Positions 14,065 through 22,386 of a DNA stretch of 64,000 nucleotides are shown here, one piece after another (positions within the stretch are counted from its first letter, which is position 1; every line of letters starts with the position of its first letter). Source of the DNA: Dactylococcopsis salina PCC 8305. GTDB lineage: Bacteria > Cyanobacteriota > Cyanobacteriia > Cyanobacteriales > Rubidibacteraceae. The notes beneath the pieces were generated by a model. The model ran no database searches, was not told the DNA's origin, and worked only from the letters and a program-made list of their open reading frames with translations. A program made the translations under genes and the position numbers. The stretch lies in contig NC_019780.1 of NCBI RefSeq assembly GCF_000317615.1, positions 1,385,840 to 1,449,839 on the forward strand. Reading direction: 5' to 3'.

Positions 14065-14748
14065 TTACTCAATAAAATGATAGGGAGGGAGAGGATCACT
14101 CACTTCAATTGTCCACGTGGGAAAGTCTTTTTTCCATTGTTCCAGTTGTTCAGAAAAAACCGATCGATCTCTTTCCTTAATTAGTAAGTAAAAGCGTTCT
14201 ATATTTTCTTTTGGTTCGCCATGAATGAATTGAGGATAGTCTTGATTGATTTGGGTTTGTAACTGATTTAATTCTGCTTGTTGCTGGCTTTGATAGTTGG
14301 TTTGTTCTTGATACCGTTGTTTTTTTGCTTTTAAGTAATTCTTGCCTTGTTTCTCCATCGGTGAGGCGTTTTCTGTCGAAAAAGGAAGCGGTGTTAATTT
14401 GAGAGTTAATTCGACTTTATCTTGAATTTCTTGTAATTTTTTCTGATACTTTTCCGCCTTAAAATCAAGGTGTTCTAATAAATCTTTTTCCGTGGGAAAA
14501 TAAGTCCCAAATCTTAAAGGAAGGAGGGGTATTTGTTGGAAAATTTCACAAATCACGGCATCATGGTGAATCACAGCTTGGATTAATTTTTGATCGTTTT
14601 CCTCTAATTCTTCTAAGGGAAGTTCCGCCTCGACAATCGCCGCGATCGCGCCTTGTTTAATTAATTGTAATTCGCCTCGAAAGCCTGACGGTAAAGATAA
14701 CGCTGATGGAGACGAAGCAATTAAACAATAGGTGTATAACATACTCAA
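14065..14748 (-). CDS. Gas vesicle protein GvpF/GvpL (divergent copy)
   Basis: A 227-residue GvpF/GvpL-family protein, a minor gas vesicle assembly component. It begins with the family-typical LYTYCLIAS start and contains HHDAVICEIFQQIPLLPLRFG at about 80-100, the usual nucleus. The final residues include the FPTWTIEVSDPLPPYHFIE pattern, also typical. It points away from the gvpA promoter of unit 1. A second GvpF/L (245 residues) lies at 21391 in unit 2; the two are clearly diverged. GvpF and GvpL cannot be separated by sequence, so the symbol is left blank. Confidence 0.9.
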   Translation of the reverse strand: MSMLYTYCLIASSPSALSLPSGFRGELQLIKQGAIAAIVEAELPLEELEENDQKLIQAVIHHDAVICEIFQQIPLLPLRFGTYFPTEKDLLEHLDFKAEKYQKKLQEIQDKVELTLKLTPLPFSTENASPMEKQGKNYLKAKKQRYQEQTNYQSQQQAELNQLQTQINQDYPQFIHGEPKENIERFYLLIKERDRSVFSEQLEQWKKDFPTWTIEVSDPLPPYHFIE

Positions 14749-14851: not shown

Positions 14852-15090
14852 GCTGAAAAGTCCATTGGTTGGCTAAGTAAGGCAAAAGGCAAGAGGCAAA
14901 AGGCAAGAGGCAAAAGGCAAGAGGCAAAAGGCAAGAGGCAAAAGGCAAAAGGCAAGAGGCAAAAGGCAAGAGGCAAAAGGCAAAAGGCAAGAGGCTTGCA
15001 TGCAAGGTGTGTGACGATTGAACAATCAATGAACTTGCATTTTTATCTGAACTGAATCGCCTCAAATCCTTATTTGGTAAAACTTTCAGT
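14852..15090. repeat. GGCAAAAGGCAAGAGGC element, copy 1
   Basis: A purine-rich array of GGCAAAAGGCAAGA units at about 14880-14998 is followed by unique sequence (TTGCATGCAAG, then TGACGATTGAACAATCAATG, then TCGCCTCAAATCCTTATTTG). Both the array and the flanks recur at 55525-55765. The ends show CTGAAA and TTTCAG as short inverted repeats. The region lies 5' of gvpA1 and contains no convincing gene. Confidence 0.85.
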
Positions 15091-15307: not shown

Positions 15308-15526
15308 ATGGCTGTTGAAAAAACTAACTCTTCCTCCAGCTTAGGAGAAGTGGTCGATCGGATTTTAGATAAAGGGGTCGTGGTTGACCTGTGGGTGCGA
15401 GTTTCCCTCGTGGGAATTGAATTACTCGCAGTAGAAGCGCGTGTGGTTATTGCTTCCGTTGAAACCTATCTGAAATATGCAGAAGCAGTAGGTTTAACGT
15501 CTTCGGCGGCAGTTCCTGCAGAATAA
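15308..15526 (+). CDS. gvpA: Gas vesicle structural protein GvpA, copy 1
   Basis: A 72-residue protein that polymerises into the ribbed wall of the gas vesicle. It has the conserved GvpA core [20 protein letters not shown] and [20 protein letters not shown] at residues 12-54. It is preceded by AAGGAGA and a near-consensus promoter. The protein is identical to that of gvpA2; I see one silent nucleotide difference over the 219 bases (CGA versus AGA for Arg). This indicates a very recent duplication or gene conversion. Confidence 0.98.
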
Positions 15527-15628
15527 ACGCTCTGTCTGTCTGAGTGATCGTTCGTTTTTGGGAGACTCAAGACTAACTAATCTTGGGTTTCCCGATTGTG
15601 AGGTTAAAGAAGTTTAAGGAGTTAGGTG

Positions 15629-16006
15629 ATGGTATCTTTACGGGAACAGTGGAACGAACAAGCAAGAGAACGTCAAAGGGAAATCAGTGCGCGAAAAACA
15701 GAAACCGTCGCGCTGTTACAAGAAGCAAATCAAGAGCGCGTCAGGGTTGCTCAACAACAAAAAGCACTGGCGATCGAGTTAAAAAATCAACTGGCACAAT
15801 TCCACGAACAATTAGAAACCAGCGTTGGGAACTGGCGACAAGAAACTCAGGAACAACTGATTAACTTAGAAGAAACCCGCACGGCGAATGCTCAACAACA
15901 GCGAGAAGCTCTCTTCAACTTCCGTCGTCAACTCACCGCTGATGTGTGGGGAGAAACCGAGAGCGACTCTTTGAAGGTTGAAGAGAATACTCCCTTTGTC
16001 GCTTAG
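15629..16006 (+). CDS. gvpC: Internally deleted gas vesicle protein GvpC, copy 1
   Basis: A 125-residue GvpC, which would normally strengthen the outside of the GvpA shell with repeated alpha-helical segments. Relative to copy 2 (243 residues) it lacks about 75 residues after residue 25, about 26 residues near the middle, and one of two copies of a C-terminal DVWGETESD motif. The remaining parts match almost residue for residue. It therefore has far fewer repeats and may bind the ribs weakly. Start: ATG after TAAGGAG, same as in copy 2. The TAG stop is followed by a 101-bp segment also found after gvpN. Confidence 0.92.
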   Translation: MVSLREQWNEQARERQREISARKTETVALLQEANQERVRVAQQQKALAIELKNQLAQFHEQLETSVGNWRQETQEQLINLEETRTANAQQQREALFNFRRQLTADVWGETESDSLKVEENTPFVA

Positions 16007-16231: not shown

Positions 16232-16525
16232 ATGCCACTAATAGAATTATTACAGGAGAAGCGAGACGAAATCATTAAAATTGCTTCCAAACATGGAGCA
16301 TTTAATGTTCGAGTATTTGGTTCTGTGGTACGACAAGAGGACACAAAAAATAGTGATATTGACTTGTTGATTGATTATGATCGCGCTAAAACCAGTTCTT
16401 GGTTTCCAGGAGGTTTACTTATGGATTGGGAGGAGTTATTAGGTTGCAAAGTTGATATTGTTACTGAACAAGGGTTAAGTCCTTTCATTCGAGAACAGGT
16501 ATTAGCTGAGGCGAAACGTTTATGA
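16232..16525 (+). CDS. mntA: MntA-type nucleotidyltransferase antitoxin
   Basis: A 97-residue minimal nucleotidyltransferase with the GSX10DXD motif: GSVVRQEDTKNSDID at about 29-43, followed by LLIDYD. In the MntA/HepT pairs, this enzyme adds adenylate to the HEPN partner and so silences it. It is complete and its stop overlaps the start of hepT by four bases. The module lies between gas vesicle unit 1 pieces, which suggests later insertion. Confidence 0.85.
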   Translation: MPLIELLQEKRDEIIKIASKHGAFNVRVFGSVVRQEDTKNSDIDLLIDYDRAKTSSWFPGGLLMDWEELLGCKVDIVTEQGLSPFIREQVLAEAKRL

Positions 16526-16872
16526 GTCTGGAACGCGATCGCGCTTATTTAGCTCATATCTTAGAATGTATTAAATACATTCAGAATTACACCAATAATG
16601 ACAGAGAAACGTTTATGAGTAGCTCTTTAATACAAGACGCTGTTTTGCGACGATTACAAACAATGGCTGAGTCAACACAACGTCTTTCTGATGAGTTAAA
16701 AGCAGAAGCTCCAAATGTGGACTGGCGAGGTTGATCAGGCTTGAGAAACATATTAGTTCATGATTATTTAAGCGGAATTGATTTAGAACAAGTTTGGGAC
16801 GCGATCGCACAGTCTTTACCAAGTTTAGAAGTTGCAGTAAAAGAACTTTCAGAACGTTTTAATTTACAATAA
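16522..16872 (+). pseudogene. hepT: HepT-type HEPN ribonuclease broken by a nonsense codon
   Basis: The frame is 116 residues long, usual for HepT, but a TGA at 16732-16734 stops it after 70 residues (ending PNVDWRG). Reading on in the same frame gives SGLRNILVHDYLSGIDLEQV, which holds the catalytic HEPN RX4-6H motif RNILVH. The toxin's active site is thus lost while the rest is intact; no frameshift is needed. A single TTA to TGA change would explain it. The partner mntA is unharmed. Confidence 0.82.
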
Positions 16873-16903: not shown

Positions 16904-16945
16904 ACAGTTGTAGTGGCGACATTCTTTGCACATATTAGGTAAAAA
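16904..16945 (+). repeat. 42-bp motif repeated upstream of orf93 (copy 1)
   Basis: ACAGTTGTAGTGGCGACATT followed by CTTTGCACATATTAGGTAAA is identical to 20246-20287, which lies just before gvpJ in unit 2. It marks the right limit of the module inserted into each unit. Confidence 0.85.
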
Positions 16946-16979: not shown

Positions 16980-17261
16980 ATGACCCCACCGCGCACCGTT
17001 CGAGATATCATTACACCAAGAGCGATCCCTCAGAGTCGTTATCTTAAATCTTTAAATCGTCTGGGAAACGCTAAGGTTTCTTTGCAAAAAGCACCGTATA
17101 GCACGCGAGAAATTCAACGCACCTCAATTAACTGTCACAATAGTTTAATTGCTCCGAGTTACCGTCATGTCTTTAAACTAAAGGTAGTCCCGAAATCAGT
17201 GCGCTTACAAGTGGCGCAAATTAGAAAACTCGGTATTTTGGAGTATAAAAGGAAACCATGA
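16980..17261 (+). CDS. Small basic protein of unknown function in gvp unit 1
   Basis: A 93-residue, Arg/Lys-rich protein beginning MTPPRTVRDIITPRAIPQSR. It occupies the place that gvpJ has in unit 2. The proline/arginine-rich start faintly recalls GvpV-type proteins, but I cannot confirm this. Its stop overlaps the start of the 47-residue ORF by four bases, consistent with coupled translation. An upstream TTG at 16926 is possible. Not recognised with confidence. Confidence 0.5.
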   Translation: MTPPRTVRDIITPRAIPQSRYLKSLNRLGNAKVSLQKAPYSTREIQRTSINCHNSLIAPSYRHVFKLKVVPKSVRLQVAQIRKLGILEYKRKP

Positions 17262-17401
17262 GTCAAGAAAAAACATTTATTCCCTCGGAAAAATATCGCC
17301 AAATGCTCGTTCGTGATGGTGAACTTCGTTTTCAGGAATGGCAGACTAACTATATTAACTATCGCAAGAAATACCTCCGCGAAGTGTCGGGAAAGTCGTG
17401 A
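17258..17401 (+). CDS. 47-residue gas vesicle locus protein, copy 1
   Basis: A charged 47-residue ORF (MSQEKTFIPSEKYRQMLVRD...) too short for most gene callers. It is nearly identical to a second ORF at 20718-20861; I see two residue changes (L/R at 23 and G/R at 45) and two silent changes. Selection for the protein is plausible because the reading frame, start, and AAAAGGAAACC upstream sequence are kept. It would be helical, Tyr/Arg-rich and soluble. It belongs to no family I recognise. Confidence 0.7.
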   Translation: MSQEKTFIPSEKYRQMLVRDGELRFQEWQTNYINYRKKYLREVSGKS

Positions 17402-17421
17402 AGAAAAAAAAATCAAAGGTA

Positions 17422-17450
17422 TTGACAGGAATAAAGAGAAAAGCTAATAT
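17422..17450 (+). promoter_or_regulatory. Sigma70-type promoter of gvpA2
   Basis: TTGACA (17422-17427), 17 bases, then TAATAT (17445-17450). The arrangement matches the gvpA1 promoter, and both start just after the 47-residue ORF or repeat. Strong expression of the abundant GvpA would be expected. Confidence 0.75.
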
Positions 17451-17566: not shown

Positions 17567-17785
17567 ATGGCTGTTGAAAAAACTAACTCTTCCTCCAGCT
17601 TAGGAGAAGTGGTCGATCGGATTTTAGATAAAGGGGTCGTGGTTGACCTGTGGGTGAGAGTTTCCCTCGTGGGAATTGAATTACTCGCAGTAGAAGCGCG
17701 TGTGGTTATTGCTTCCGTTGAAACCTATCTGAAATATGCAGAAGCAGTAGGTTTAACGTCTTCGGCGGCAGTTCCTGCAGAATAA
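17567..17785 (+). CDS. gvpA: Gas vesicle structural protein GvpA, copy 2
   Basis: The 72-residue product is identical to that of copy 1. It is preceded by CAAGGAGAAA. The gene heads the complete gvp unit and is followed by gvpC after about 100 bases that are nearly identical in both units. Confidence 0.98.
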
Positions 17786-17887: not shown

Positions 17888-18619
17888 ATGGTATCTTTAC
17901 GGGAACAGTGGAACGAACAAGCAAGAGAACGTCAAAGGGAAATCAGTGCGCGAAAAACAGAGATTGAGGAGGCTCGATCGAGCATTCAAAAAGAATTACA
18001 AGCTCAATATGAAGCTCGTTTAGCCGCCACTCAACAGTTACAATCAGAACTACGGCAATTTTACAACAATCTCGCCAATGACACAGCAGGATTTTTAGAG
18101 AGAACGAGAACCACTCGTGAACAAATGGCGCAAAAGCTAGAACAGGAATTAACCCAGTTGATTACTGATTTAGAAAATAATACCGCCGCGCTGTTACAAG
18201 AAGCCAATCAAGAGCGCGTCAGGGTTTCTCAACAACAAAAAGCACTGGCGATCGAGTTAAAAAATCAACTGGCACAATTCCACGAACAATTAGAAACCAG
18301 CGTTGGGAACTGGCGACAAGAAACTCAGGAACAACAACAGCAAACCGCCGCGCAACTGCGAGAAGACTTAAATGCTTTTTCTGCTAACCTCATGGCACAA
18401 GTGGAGAAACTTCTGATTAACTTAGAAGAAACCCGCACGGCGAATGCTCAACAACAGCGAGAAGCTCTCTTCAACTTCCGTCGTCAACTCACCGTTGATG
18501 TGTGGGGAGAAACCGAGAGCGACTCCTTGAAGGTTGAAGAGAATACTCCCTCTGATGTGTGGGGAGAAACCGAGAGCGACTTCTTGGAGGTTGAAGAGAA
18601 TACTCCCTTTGTCACTTAA
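17888..18619 (+). CDS. gvpC: Gas vesicle protein GvpC, copy 2 (full length)
   Basis: A 243-residue GvpC that strengthens the gas vesicle. It is Gln/Glu-rich and helical with about five degenerate repeats of roughly 33 residues, as in other cyanobacterial GvpC (for example AATQQLQSELRQFYNNLAND, then AQKLEQELTQLITDLENN). The C-terminus is acidic and holds two copies of a 19-residue block beginning DVWGETESD. The stop is TAA. The gvpN ATG lies 21 bases further on. Confidence 0.95.
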   Translation: MVSLREQWNEQARERQREISARKTEIEEARSSIQKELQAQYEARLAATQQLQSELRQFYNNLANDTAGFLERTRTTREQMAQKLEQELTQLITDLENNTAALLQEANQERVRVSQQQKALAIELKNQLAQFHEQLETSVGNWRQETQEQQQQTAAQLREDLNAFSANLMAQVEKLLINLEETRTANAQQQREALFNFRRQLTVDVWGETESDSLKVEENTPSDVWGETESDFLEVEENTPFVT

Positions 18620-18640: not shown

Positions 18641-19510
18641 ATGACAACAGTTTTACACGCTCGTCCGAAAGGTTTTGTTTCTACGCCAACCATCGATCGC
18701 ATCAGTGGTCGCGCTTGGCGTTATCTCCAATCTGGTTTTTCGATTCATCTACGGGGTCCGGCGGGAACAGGTAAAACGACTCTCGCCATGCACTTAGCGG
18801 ATTTACTGAATCGTCCGATTATGCTGTTATATGGGGATGATGAATTTAAAAGCACCGATTTAATTGGCAGTAATACGGGTTACACGCGAAAAAAAGTCGT
18901 TGATAACTACATTCATAGCGTCGTGAAAGAAGAAGACGAGTTACGCCAACAATGGGTGGATTCTCGTTTAACAATGGCGTGTCGAGAAGGGTTTACGCTC
19001 GTTTATGATGAGTTTAATCGCTCTCCTCCAGAAGTGAATAATGTACTTTTATCCGCTTTGGAAGAAAAGCTATTGGTGCTTCCCCCAGATAGTAATCGAT
19101 CGGAATATGTACGGGTGAGTCCCAATTTTCGCGCCATTTTTACCTCGAATCCTGAAGAATACTGGGGGGTTCATGGTACACAAGACGCATTGCTCGATCG
19201 AGTCGTGACGATTAATGTACCTGAACCCGACTTAGAGACGCAACAGGAGATTATCACCCAAAAAGTAGGGATTAACGCCAATGACGGAGAAAAGATTGTT
19301 AATTTTGTTCGTCAATTCCGCGATCGAGCAGCGGTGAAAAATTCCTCTGGTTTGCGTTCTTGTTTAATGATTGCACAAGTCTGTCATCAACATGAAATCC
19401 CCGTCCAAACCAGCGATGAAGGCTTTCGTGACATTTGCTATGATATCCTTTCCTCTCGTTGTAGTCTGTCTCCAGAAGAATCAGCCGCACTTTTAGAACA
19501 ACTCTTCTAG
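18641..19510 (+). CDS. gvpN: Gas vesicle AAA+ ATPase GvpN
   Basis: A 289-residue MoxR-type AAA+ ATPase needed for gas vesicle assembly. Walker A GPAGTGKT is at 39-46 and Walker B TLVYDEFN at 119-125; [13 protein letters not shown] and [14 protein letters not shown] are family signatures. It ends in TAG, followed by a 101-bp segment that is also after gvpC1. Unit 1 has no gvpN, as if everything between the gvpC and gvpN stop codons had been deleted. Confidence 0.97.
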
Positions 19511-19608: not shown

Positions 19609-19892
19609 TAATTGCAGCGGAGAAAGGTGCGGATAAAATTGCAGTTGAAATTAAAAGTTTTCGTAGCGCATCAGAGATGAAAGATTTAGAGGAAGCGATT
19701 GGTCAATTTGTTTTATACGAGCGTCTATTAGCCCGATATGAACCCGAAAGAAAGTTATATTTAGCCGTTCCTAAAAATGTTATAAAATCAGTTTTTGAAG
19801 AGGAAGCTGGGCAAGTTTTACTAGAAGATCAAATTCTGCGATTGTTAACTTTTGATACAACAAAAGAGGAGGTGTTTAGATGGATAACTTAA
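19608..19892 (+). pseudogene. xisH: 5'-truncated xisH-like gene
   Basis: The frame reads LIAAEKGADKIAVEIKSFRS and then LYERLLARYEPERKLYLAVP, matching the middle and end of the XisH family (fdxN element excision controlling factor). About 40 N-terminal residues, including the first part of the endonuclease-like core, are missing, because the gene is joined to the gvpN tail segment at 19608. The first in-frame ATG is at 19677. The end overlaps the start of xisI by 13 bases, the usual pairing. Confidence 0.82.
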
Positions 19893-20221
19893 GCCACGAA
19901 GATCTTGAAAAAGCAGTAACGAACGTTTTAAGAGACTATATTGAATTTCTCGGAAACGACCCCGATAGCAACATTGAACTGATTATAGACAAAGACAAAA
20001 CCCATTATCTCTTAGTAGAAATGGGATGGCAAAACGATCGCCGAATCTATGGCAACCTCATTCACATTGAGATCATTAATAACAAAATTTGGATACAACA
20101 AGACGGAACAGAAGAAGGAATCGCCAACGAACTGGTTAAACAGGGAATCTCTCCCCAGCAAATTGTTCTCGCCTTTAAGACTCCAGAACGCCGTAAAATC
20201 GCGGACTTTGCTATTTCTTAA
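19880..20221 (+). CDS. xisI: XisI-family protein
   Basis: A 113-residue XisI-type protein, originally described as controlling excision of the fdxN element in Anabaena. The signature YLLVEMGWQNDRRIYGNLIH is at about 41-60, with the C-terminal FKTPERRKIADFA. XisI and XisH are nearly always adjacent in cyanobacteria, often in multiple copies without any element nearby. The toxin-antitoxin-like role is a suggestion, not proven. The partner here is truncated. Confidence 0.9.
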   Translation: MDNLSHEDLEKAVTNVLRDYIEFLGNDPDSNIELIIDKDKTHYLLVEMGWQNDRRIYGNLIHIEIINNKIWIQQDGTEEGIANELVKQGISPQQIVLAFKTPERRKIADFAIS

Positions 20222-20245: not shown

Positions 20246-20287
20246 ACAGTTGTAGTGGCGACATTCTTTGCACATATTAGGTAAAAA
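20246..20287 (+). repeat. 42-bp motif upstream of gvpJ (copy 2)
   Basis: Identical to 16904-16945. It overlaps the likely ribosome-binding region of gvpJ (TTAGG at about 20276). Confidence 0.85.
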
Positions 20288-20291
20288 TAGC

Positions 20292-20684
20292 GTGGTTAAC
20301 TCTAACACCAATCAACCCAAATCTTATCAGTCCAAAGGAATCACCAATAGCACTCAATCTTCTAGTCTTGCTGATATTTTAGAGCGAGTCTTAGATAAAG
20401 GAATTGTCATCGCGGGAGACATTAGCGTTTCTGTGGGTTCAACCGAACTCTTAACGATTCGGATTCGTCTTTTAATTTCGTCGGTAGATAGGGCGAGAGA
20501 AATCGGAATTAACTGGTGGGAAAGTGATCCTTATCTTTCCAGTCAAGCGCATCTGATGAAGGAAGAAAATCAAGCGTTACAATCACGGTTAGAAAATATG
20601 GAAGCAGAGTTACGTCGTTTGAAGGGAGAAACCAACCTCGATCAGTCTTCTTTAGGAGAATCCGATCAACGTAGCTTACAATAG
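20292..20684 (+). CDS. gvpJ: Gas vesicle protein GvpJ
   Basis: A 130-residue GvpA-like minor wall protein. It holds the GvpA-type core SLADILERVLDKGIVIAGDI and then TRIRLLISSVDRAREIG-like residues at about 30-80, plus a C-terminal coiled-coil-like tail (EENQALQSRLENMEAELRRL). I chose the GTG at 20292 (VVNSNTNQPK), preceded by TTAGG; an in-frame TTG at 20268 lies within the shared 42-bp motif and is less likely. Confidence 0.93.
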   Translation: MVNSNTNQPKSYQSKGITNSTQSSSLADILERVLDKGIVIAGDISVSVGSTELLTIRIRLLISSVDRAREIGINWWESDPYLSSQAHLMKEENQALQSRLENMEAELRRLKGETNLDQSSLGESDQRSLQ

Positions 20685-20717
20685 GATTACGCTAATTTTG
20701 GAGTATAAAAGGAAACC

Positions 20718-20861
20718 ATGAGTCAAGAAAAAACATTTATTCCCTCGGAAAAATACCGCCAAATGCTCGTTCGTGATGGTGAACGTCGCTTTCAGGAATG
20801 GCAGACTAACTATATTAACTATCGCAAGAAATACCTCCGTGAAGTGTCGAGAAAGTCGTGA
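20718..20861 (+). CDS. 47-residue gas vesicle locus protein, copy 2
   Basis: Almost identical to the ORF at 17258; it begins MSQEKTFIPSEKYRQMLVRD and ends YLREVSRKS. It lies 33 bases after gvpJ and 15 bases before gvpK, in the middle of the functional unit, so it is probably translated. Being conserved in the otherwise decayed unit 1 makes it a candidate new gas vesicle accessory protein. No known family. Confidence 0.72.
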   Translation: MSQEKTFIPSEKYRQMLVRDGERRFQEWQTNYINYRKKYLREVSRKS

Positions 20862-20876
20862 AGAAGAAACAATTAA

Positions 20877-21347
20877 ATGTCTGAAGAAGAAAGCAACCTC
20901 AGTCGAGTTGATCTCAATCCCGCCAGTTCTAATTCTGATGCGGGATTAGCTCCTTTGTTGTTAACGGTCACCGAATTAATCCGTCAGTTGATGGAAGCAC
21001 AAGTGATTCGGCGCATGGATGCCGAGTTATTAACGGAAGCAGAACTCGATCGAGCGGGAGAAAGTTTACAACGTTTAGAAGAGGAAATCCTCCGTTTATG
21101 TGAAATTTTCGACGTTGATCCCGCCGATCTCAATGTTCACTTGGGAGAGTTGGGAACGTTGTTACCGAAAGAGGGGGGATATTATCCAGGAGAAACCTCG
21201 GATCAACCTTCGATTTTAGAATTACTCGATCGAGTTCTTCATACAGGAGTCGTAATTGATGGTAATCTCGATCTAGGGATCGCTCAACTGAATTTAATTC
21301 AAGCGAAACTCCATCTGGTTTTAACCTCACAACCGATTAACAATTAA
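20877..21347 (+). CDS. gvpK: Gas vesicle protein GvpK
   Basis: A 156-residue GvpK, a minor component needed for vesicle formation. Hallmarks are LAPLLLTVTELIRQLMEAQV at about 25-44 and the final helical segment QPSILELLDRVLHTGVVIDG. It begins 15 bases after the 47-residue ORF and is followed by GvpF/L after 43 bases, all on one strand. Confidence 0.95.
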   Translation: MSEEESNLSRVDLNPASSNSDAGLAPLLLTVTELIRQLMEAQVIRRMDAELLTEAELDRAGESLQRLEEEILRLCEIFDVDPADLNVHLGELGTLLPKEGGYYPGETSDQPSILELLDRVLHTGVVIDGNLDLGIAQLNLIQAKLHLVLTSQPINN

Positions 21348-21390: not shown

Positions 21391-22128
21391 ATGACGGAAG
21401 GTTTTTATTTATATGGTATTTTTCCCCCACCTGGACCGAAAACAATTGAAACCCAAGGCTTAGACAAACAACCGATTTTTTCCCATACGGTAGAAGGGTT
21501 TACTTTTCTTTATTCAGAAGCGCAACAATCCCGTTATTTAGCCAGTCGTCGTAACCTAATTACTCATACCAAAGTATTAGAAGAAGCGATGGAAAACGGA
21601 TCGCGGACGTTGCTTCCGTTACAATTTGGTTTAATTGTTCCAGACTGGGAAACAGTGGTTCAAGATTTGTTACAACATCAAGCAGAAAGCCTACATTTTT
21701 TTCTGGAAAAATTAGAAGGAAAACGAGAAGTTAGCCTCAAAATTTATTGGGAAACCAATGCTGAATTGAACGCTCTTTTAGAAGAAAATCCCGCCTTAAA
21801 AGCAAGACGAGATAATCTAGAAGGGAAACAATTAAGCATGGATGAAGTTATCCAAATTGGACAGGCTTTAGAACAAGAAATGGAGGGACGAAAACAAGAT
21901 ATTATTTCTCGTTTTGAAGAGGTTTTGATTCCCTTTGCTTTTGAAATTAAAGAGAATGATGTGTTAACTGAAACCATGATTTATAACACGGCTTTTCTGA
22001 TTAATTGGGATGCTGAATCCGATTTTGGGGAACAATTAGAAGCGATCGATGCTGAGTTTTCACCGCGCCTAAAAATCCGCTATAACAATTTTACACCGCC
22101 TTATAATTTTGTCGAATTACGAGAATAA
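21391..22128 (+). CDS. Gas vesicle protein GvpF/GvpL (unit 2 copy)
   Basis: A 245-residue GvpF/L-family protein starting with the family-typical FYLYGIFPPPG. It holds the SRTLLPLQFGLIVPDWE core and the end KIRYNNFTPPYNFVELRE, which is close to the C-terminus of the divergent paralog at 14065. It differs enough from that copy to be a different paralog. GvpF versus GvpL cannot be decided here. Confidence 0.92.
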   Translation: MTEGFYLYGIFPPPGPKTIETQGLDKQPIFSHTVEGFTFLYSEAQQSRYLASRRNLITHTKVLEEAMENGSRTLLPLQFGLIVPDWETVVQDLLQHQAESLHFFLEKLEGKREVSLKIYWETNAELNALLEENPALKARRDNLEGKQLSMDEVIQIGQALEQEMEGRKQDIISRFEEVLIPFAFEIKENDVLTETMIYNTAFLINWDAESDFGEQLEAIDAEFSPRLKIRYNNFTPPYNFVELRE

Positions 22129-22134
22129 TTAACA

Positions 22135-22386
22135 ATGGTCTTCAAACTTTTATTACTACCCATCACCGGACCGATCGAGGGAATTACTTGGTTAGGAGAA
22201 CAAATTTTAGAACGAGCCGACCAAGAATTAGATAGTAAGGAAAACCTCAATAAACGACTCTTAAGCCTACAGCTATCTCTAGATTTAGGAGAGATTTCTG
22301 AGGAAGAATACGACGAACAAGAAGAAGAAATATTGTTAGCAATGCAAGCAATGGAAGACGAAGAGAATGAGGAAGAAGAATCATAA
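22135..22386 (+). CDS. gvpG: Gas vesicle protein GvpG
   Basis: An 83-residue, very acidic GvpG-family protein starting MVFKLLLLPITGPIEGITWL (first helix about 1-20), then a helical charged tail. It follows GvpF/L by six bases. The last bases overlap the NUDIX gene of the opposite strand by six bases. The gvp gene order here therefore ends with gvpG; gvpV and gvpW are not visible. Confidence 0.93.
   Translation: MVFKLLLLPITGPIEGITWLGEQILERADQELDSKENLNKRLLSLQLSLDLGEISEEEYDEQEEEILLAMQAMEDEENEEEES

Follow-up and report, generated by a model that had tools for sequence, protein, structure and literature searches.

A conserved family of small, predicted helical proteins: very probably an overlooked component of cyanobacterial flotation

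The nine-gene cluster of Anabaena flos-aquae is among the best-studied gas vesicle operons, according to the available part of one report (PMC11445434). The accessible text of another describes GvpC as an amphipathic helix along the ribs, above the negatively charged C terminus of GvpA, with 33 residues of GvpC to approximately four GvpA (PMC10185304). In the available portion of a review, GvpW is presented as a putative GvpL homologue and GvpX as somewhat similar to GvpJ (PMC11267810). Deletion of Serratia GvpX was found to increase ultrasound signal and decrease opacity in E. coli, as stated in the accessible part of a further report (PMC10344784). Here we compare these systems with orf47, a 47-codon gene of the gas vesicle locus of Dactylococcopsis salina PCC 8305. 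In the gas vesicle texts available to us, which do not include the founding study of Microcystis (Mlouka 2004), the family appears to be undescribed.

We analyzed a window of 64,000 nucleotides (contig NC_019780.1, positions 1,385,840 to 1,449,839), in which two gvp units lie on the + strand. The downstream unit has the order gvpA-gvpC-gvpN-[xisH fragment, xisI]-gvpJ-orf47-gvpK-gvpF-gvpG. It begins with gvpA copy 2 (17567-17785; protein identical to that of gvpA copy 1; D2 repeat, 95%) and gvpC copy 2 (17888-18619; 243 amino acids), which is named by its position in the gvpA-gvpN interval and is divergent from the canonical PF01304 repeat; PF01304 had no match at E ≤ 0.01 anywhere in the D. 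salina PCC 8305 genome. These are followed by gvpN (18641-19510; AAA_5, E = 5.7e-20) and gvpJ (20268-20684; PF00741, E = 1.1e-15; TTG start listed, true start may be internal), both named by position, and then by gvpK with a C-terminal GvpA-like domain (20877-21347; PF05121, E = 2.1e-31; PF00741, E = 2.3e-13), gvpF (21391-22128; NF052351, 357 bits against a cut-off of 350), and gvpG (22135-22386; PF05120, E = 9e-24). The gvpN-gvpJ interval holds a XisI gene and a XisH gene without its first half (19677-20221). A second GvpL/F-family gene, gvpW-like, lies at 14065-14748 on the - strand, opposite to the cluster (PF06386, E = 6e-38).

Two copies of orf47 are present, both on the + strand with an ATG start and 47 residues long. 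Copy 1 (17258-17401) belongs to the rearranged upstream unit, while copy 2 (20718-20861) belongs to the operon and sits between gvpJ and gvpK, 15 nt 5' of gvpK. The sequence-only reading of this DNA had claimed both reading frames, a two-residue difference between them with frame, start, and upstream sequence kept, and the placement between gvpJ and gvpK; our data bear out the first two claims, and the third holds for copy 2. Residue 23 is L in copy 1 and R in copy 2, and residue 45 is G in copy 1 and R in copy 2; the two genes differ at five nucleotides, and three of these differences are synonymous. The sequence AAAAGGAAACC stands immediately 5' of the ATG in both, within a common leader (17235-17257 for copy 1; 20695-20717, + strand, for copy 2), and a 197-nt direct repeat with 93% identity (17235-17431 and 20695-20891) contains both copies. 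A search of the whole genome (a contig of 3,781,008 bases) at E ≤ 0.001 returned two matches, which are the two copies in the window.

The upstream unit duplicates the downstream one only in part and is damaged. Its order is gvpA copy 1 (15308-15526; NF006874, E = 3.4e-39), a short gvpC (15626-16006; 126 amino acids versus 243 in gvpC copy 2, owing to an internal deletion), a nucleotidyltransferase gene, an interrupted HepT gene, orf94, and orf47 copy 1, which has no gvpN, gvpJ, or gvpK beside it. The nucleotidyltransferase gene and the HepT-like RNase gene, the latter with an in-frame stop, are inserted in this unit at 16232-16872. An identical 42-nt repeat (16904-16945 and 20246-20287) adjoins both rearranged stretches and is possibly the trace of a duplication or of a mobile element. 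Tandem repeats of 7 and 14 nt (AAAAGGC, AAGAGGC) lie upstream of gvpA copy 1 at 14879-14995.

We found a second uncharacterized gene of the gvp operon, orf94 (16980-17261, + strand, ATG start; in the list of reading frames it is longer and begins with a TTG at 16926), whose stop overlaps the ATG of orf47 copy 1. No match to orf94 was obtained in NCBIfam or Pfam up to E = 1, nor in PHROGs. At E < 1e-40 it occurs in 2 of 386 cyanobacterial genomes, D. salina PCC 8305 and G366, a member of the same genus; four further matches in these genomes (E = 0.003-0.007) were treated as chance. Relatives were seen only in G366 and in the Halothece MAG L102, with the stretch SYRHxFKxKVVPxxVR conserved. The G366 cluster reads gvpA-C-N-J-orf94-orf47-K-F-G, and L102 has the same gene order but a two-unit orf47. 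Since both have gvpJ-orf94-orf47-gvpK, orf94, which is missing before orf47 copy 2, has been lost there.

Our data show that orf47 is a real gene of a conserved family for which Pfam and NCBIfam have no model. When 386 cyanobacterial genomes were searched at the protein level, it was detected in 21 at E < 1e-8, with a next best value of 0.0036; the remaining 35 of the 56 genomes in the search listing (best E = 0.0036-0.1), many of them with matches in long unrelated frames, were treated as chance. A scan of contigs from 84,980 species with two short peptide patterns, which distant relatives would escape, confirmed 52 loci, all in cyanobacteria-titled records and including Microcystis, Planktothrix, Pseudanabaena, and Trichodesmium. 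Because relatives occur in 21 of the 386 genomes and at these 52 cyanobacterial loci, orf47 is not a chance reading frame. Pfam and NCBIfam were without a match even at E values up to 1. PHROGs yielded no convincing relative, with a single match to the window protein at E = 0.37; for the two-unit forms the best PHROG was phrog_17061 (E = 4e-4 and 1.5e-3, approximately 30 residues, of unknown function), others being weaker. Among viral contigs no relative was confirmed, phages and plasmids gave no match, and a search of PDB sequences returned mannanase chains only (E = 0.026). The earlier statement that orf47 has no recognized homology is thus correct for the family libraries (NCBIfam, Pfam, PHROGs) and incorrect for unannotated genome sequence, where relatives exist.

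The family core is SExYRQMLVRDGxRRFxEWHxxFLxYQxxYL. Some members carry this unit in tandem, with two units in Microcystis, G284, and L102 and at least four in Trichodesmium, spaced 35 to 55 residues apart. For Rhizonema-type genes there is no more than a hint of a second, degenerate unit (E = 0.14-4.6). We aligned 36 of 43 non-redundant units together with the two window copies (alignment A2, 38 rows). Any column described as "invariant" is so among these rows, which lack four Trichodesmium units, two Microcystis units, and L153. Copy 2 equals the family consensus except for Q29, a site that is H in 36 of the 38 rows and Q only in the two window copies. Copy 1 may be decaying, as suggested by its R23L change, which hits a near-invariant site (R in the other 37 of the 38 rows).

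We calculated dN/dS by the Nei-Gojobori method, for which single pairs are noisy at 47 codons. Within Pseudanabaena the median was 0.130 and the maximum 0.355 over 78 pairs. Against the G366 gene, copy 2 gave 0.18 and copy 1 gave 0.25; values in the Planktothrix group ranged from 0 to 0.54, with one pair undefined for lack of synonymous change, and the two window copies gave 0.149 on three synonymous and two nonsynonymous changes. The ratio is thus below 1 and not near it. We considered whether orf47 is a spurious or non-functional reading frame kept by local duplication only. The damaged surroundings of copy 1 and its R23L change at a near-invariant site would fit such an origin, which is possible for copy 1, but conservation across 8 of the families in the 386-genome search and dN/dS below 1 contradict it for the family, and overall we regard it as highly improbable.

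We next consider the tie to gas vesicle genes. All 21 genomes with orf47 (E < 1e-8) fall within the 55 of the 386 genomes that contain gvpK, a co-occurrence with hypergeometric probabilities of 3.6e-20 by genome and 2.9e-7 by genus, computed with no tree correction on related genomes that are not independent. PF00741 is present in 49 of the 50 genomes behind named orf47 loci, the exception being G458, of 2.7 Mb. These 50 were drawn from 51 loci with distinct genomes (L126 belongs to the genome of L123, and L102 was omitted), and they overlap the set of 21, with many members common or close. Relatives were found in other cyanobacterial gvp clusters: the fetched stretch contained a gvp gene at 23 of the 52 named loci, in four arrangements. 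The next downstream gvp gene is gvpK, at 14-520 nt, at 11 of the 52; gvpN lies 304-456 nt upstream at 6; gvpA lies 0.8-2.4 kb downstream at 5, all Microcystis; and a gvpW-like gene lies 420 nt upstream at 1. At the other 29 loci, several of them on short contigs, the fetched stretch held no gvp gene. A profile search did not find orf47 in 34 of the 55 gvpK genomes, apart from one chance match (E = 0.065), and orf47 is therefore lineage-specific and not core to gas vesicles. Gas vesicles do not in general require it, since many gvp-bearing lineages are without it.

The linkage data raise the possibility that the protein, instead of coating the shell, helps GvpK (and GvpJ) to assemble or nucleate vesicles when their growth begins. 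In the window and in G366, orf47 is packed into the gvpJ-gvpK interval. Among the 23 linked loci, gvpK is most often the next gvp gene (11 loci). It follows orf47 also in L113, L132, and L144, whose fetched 7-10 kb of upstream sequence showed no gvpJ, and in L120, which has only 0.8 kb of upstream sequence. Set against this, orf47 follows gvpN in L141, L143, L148, and L149, where gvpJ-gvpK is on the other strand; it precedes gvpA in Microcystis, and it is unlinked in Planktothrix and most Pseudanabaena. The 34 gvpK genomes without orf47 also speak against it. We consider this role possible though rather doubtful.

In Pseudanabaena, orf47 usually lies between serA and prmC (named by inspection of translations), away from gvp genes. 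Across 26 Pseudanabaena genomes it is present in 22 of the 23 with PF00741, one of which (G404) has a partial PF00741 match only, and in none of the 3 without PF00741 (Fisher, p = 0.0015). The exception, G405, has PF00741 and no orf47; its missing orf47 is likely an assembly gap because the genome is 82% complete and the usual neighbor serA is unmatched as well. In all three genomes without PF00741 the serA-prmC site still contains relics of orf47, which have decayed in two forms. A piece of 57 nt with 88% identity to orf47 is retained in G391 and G392, whose sequences at this site are 99.9% identical to each other, and G398 retains two pieces of 31 and 32 nt (87% and 81% identity) with other sequence between them; a control with 300 codon shuffles gave no match at E ≤ 1e-3. 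These remnants show that orf47 was once present in the three genomes and then decayed. A further Pseudanabaena genome, G387, has an extra gvpA in divergent orientation approximately 0.55 kb from orf47, also between serA and prmC (L167:5503-6393).

Loss together with gas vesicle genes despite lack of linkage would also suit a protein outside assembly and shell, either one that regulates gvp expression or one that tethers vesicles to each other in gas vacuoles. The protein is small and basic on average, and a variable number of units would suit a cross-linker. A single predicted helix offers no DNA-binding fold, however, and the model had no Foldseek match in the PDB library, which carries little weight for a lone helix; we judge either function distinctly unlikely. 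Taken together, the co-occurrence with gvp genes, the several kinds of linkage to them, the relics in strains that lack them, and dN/dS below 1 uphold, as to association, the earlier proposal of an accessory gas vesicle gene, a part in assembly itself being putative. The observations named beforehand as refuting that proposal, absence from all other gvp clusters and dN/dS near 1, were not obtained. We are highly confident that orf47 encodes a new accessory gas vesicle protein.

We compared orf47 with each of the known proteins. The sequence-only reading had likened its position to that of gvpX in other cyanobacteria. Microcystis GvpX resembles orf47 copy 2 in lying in the gvpJ-gvpK interval, but the Microcystis frame there is GvpJ-like in sequence and orf47 is not, with no match to PF00741 (the GvpA/GvpJ family) up to E = 1. 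The parallel with gvpX therefore fails, and the true Microcystis relative of orf47 is a separate two-unit gene, located upstream of gvpA at 5 of 8 loci, the other three being on pieces without gvpA. Serratia GvpX, likewise a poorly known accessory gene, was set beside orf47 by description and the sequences were not compared directly; the orf47 pattern scan gave cyanobacteria-titled records only. GvpV and GvpW resemble orf47 as accessory genes found with cyanobacterial gvp clusters, as far as the available texts describe them. GvpV is longer and has another motif, and a two-row GvpV profile matched one place in the D. salina PCC 8305 genome, G000:C1:3174771-3174983, which is not orf47 and is far from the gvp cluster. 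Because the match lies there, we also rejected orf94 as GvpV. The GvpV-like match in G366 is interrupted by a TGA.

GvpC is like orf47 in several respects, as orf47 has a predicted helix with a conserved face, a unit number that varies among species, and a tie to gas vesicles. The motifs differ, however, and the spacing of orf47 units is 35 to 55 residues versus 33 in GvpC (PF01304). PF01304 did not match orf47 up to E = 1, or the two-unit forms up to E = 0.01. Some repeat positions can be overlaid by eye, but hhalign gave a probability of 0.3% over one column, and we found no support for homology with GvpC. D. salina PCC 8305, G366, and L102 carry gvpC besides orf47.

AlphaFold predicts one helix for orf47, over residues 10-46 (mean pLDDT of 91, pTM of 0.55), and two helices for the two-unit Microcystis form (pLDDT of 83, pTM of 0.35), whose packing is not interpretable. 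Four residue ranges were tried for periodicity, and the full helix is quoted here. Conservation is periodic with the helix turn (p = 0.014 over residues 10-46; 0.0002-0.012 in three sub-ranges), while hydrophobic periodicity reached p = 0.053 over residues 10-46 and 0.059-0.20 in the sub-ranges, none of which is significant. Net charge averages +3.8 across the family (range, -1 to +7). We propose that orf47 is a single, probably amphipathic helix of approximately 37 residues (approximately 5.5 nm), predicted to be net positive in most members, whose conserved face would bind along the lattice of GvpA, or else at the shell's growing edge. Such binding might stabilize the vesicle or shape it, in a manner close to that of a GvpC repeat, and the extra units of some species could lengthen the contact. 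A lone helix is compatible with many roles. In our judgement, the helix, its periodic conservation, its mean positive charge, and the comparison with GvpC rank binding to the GvpA shell or growing edge highest, followed by a role as partner of GvpK, with regulation or tethering lower; binding is itself a tentative assignment. As a whole, the best explanation is that orf47 is a previously unnamed cyanobacterial accessory protein whose helix acts along the GvpA lattice or growing edge, to which we give a probability of approximately 0.5.

We also asked how orf47 is distributed relative to canonical GvpC repeats. At least three PF01304 matches were found in 17 of the 34 gvpK genomes without orf47 versus 1 of the 21 with orf47 (Fisher, p = 4e-4). 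The genomes of the named loci, an overlapping set of 50, include 2 with this many; G455 and G428 are exceptions that have both. Any PF01304 match was found in 20 of the 34 versus 9 of the 21 (p = 0.28). The 17 genomes all belong to one family, f6, so that shared ancestry could explain the contrast. The contrast in repeat number may hint at a bolder version of the shell-binding proposal, in which helices that coat the shell evolved independently a second time and orf47 is a "mini-GvpC". It would replace or supplement strengthening in cyanobacteria where canonical 33-residue GvpC repeats are absent, with unit number tuned to vesicle strength. This reading seems unlikely to us.

Family f6, which we take to hold the relatives of Anabaena, has 22 sampled gvpK genomes, and orf47 was not found in them; A. 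flos-aquae itself is outside this sample. Not found in these genomes yet present in Microcystis, Planktothrix, Pseudanabaena, and Trichodesmium, orf47 could be a missing part both for work on buoyancy and for vesicles engineered to serve as ultrasound reporters. Very probably, orf47 is a component of the flotation machinery that had been overlooked, with its exact job putative.
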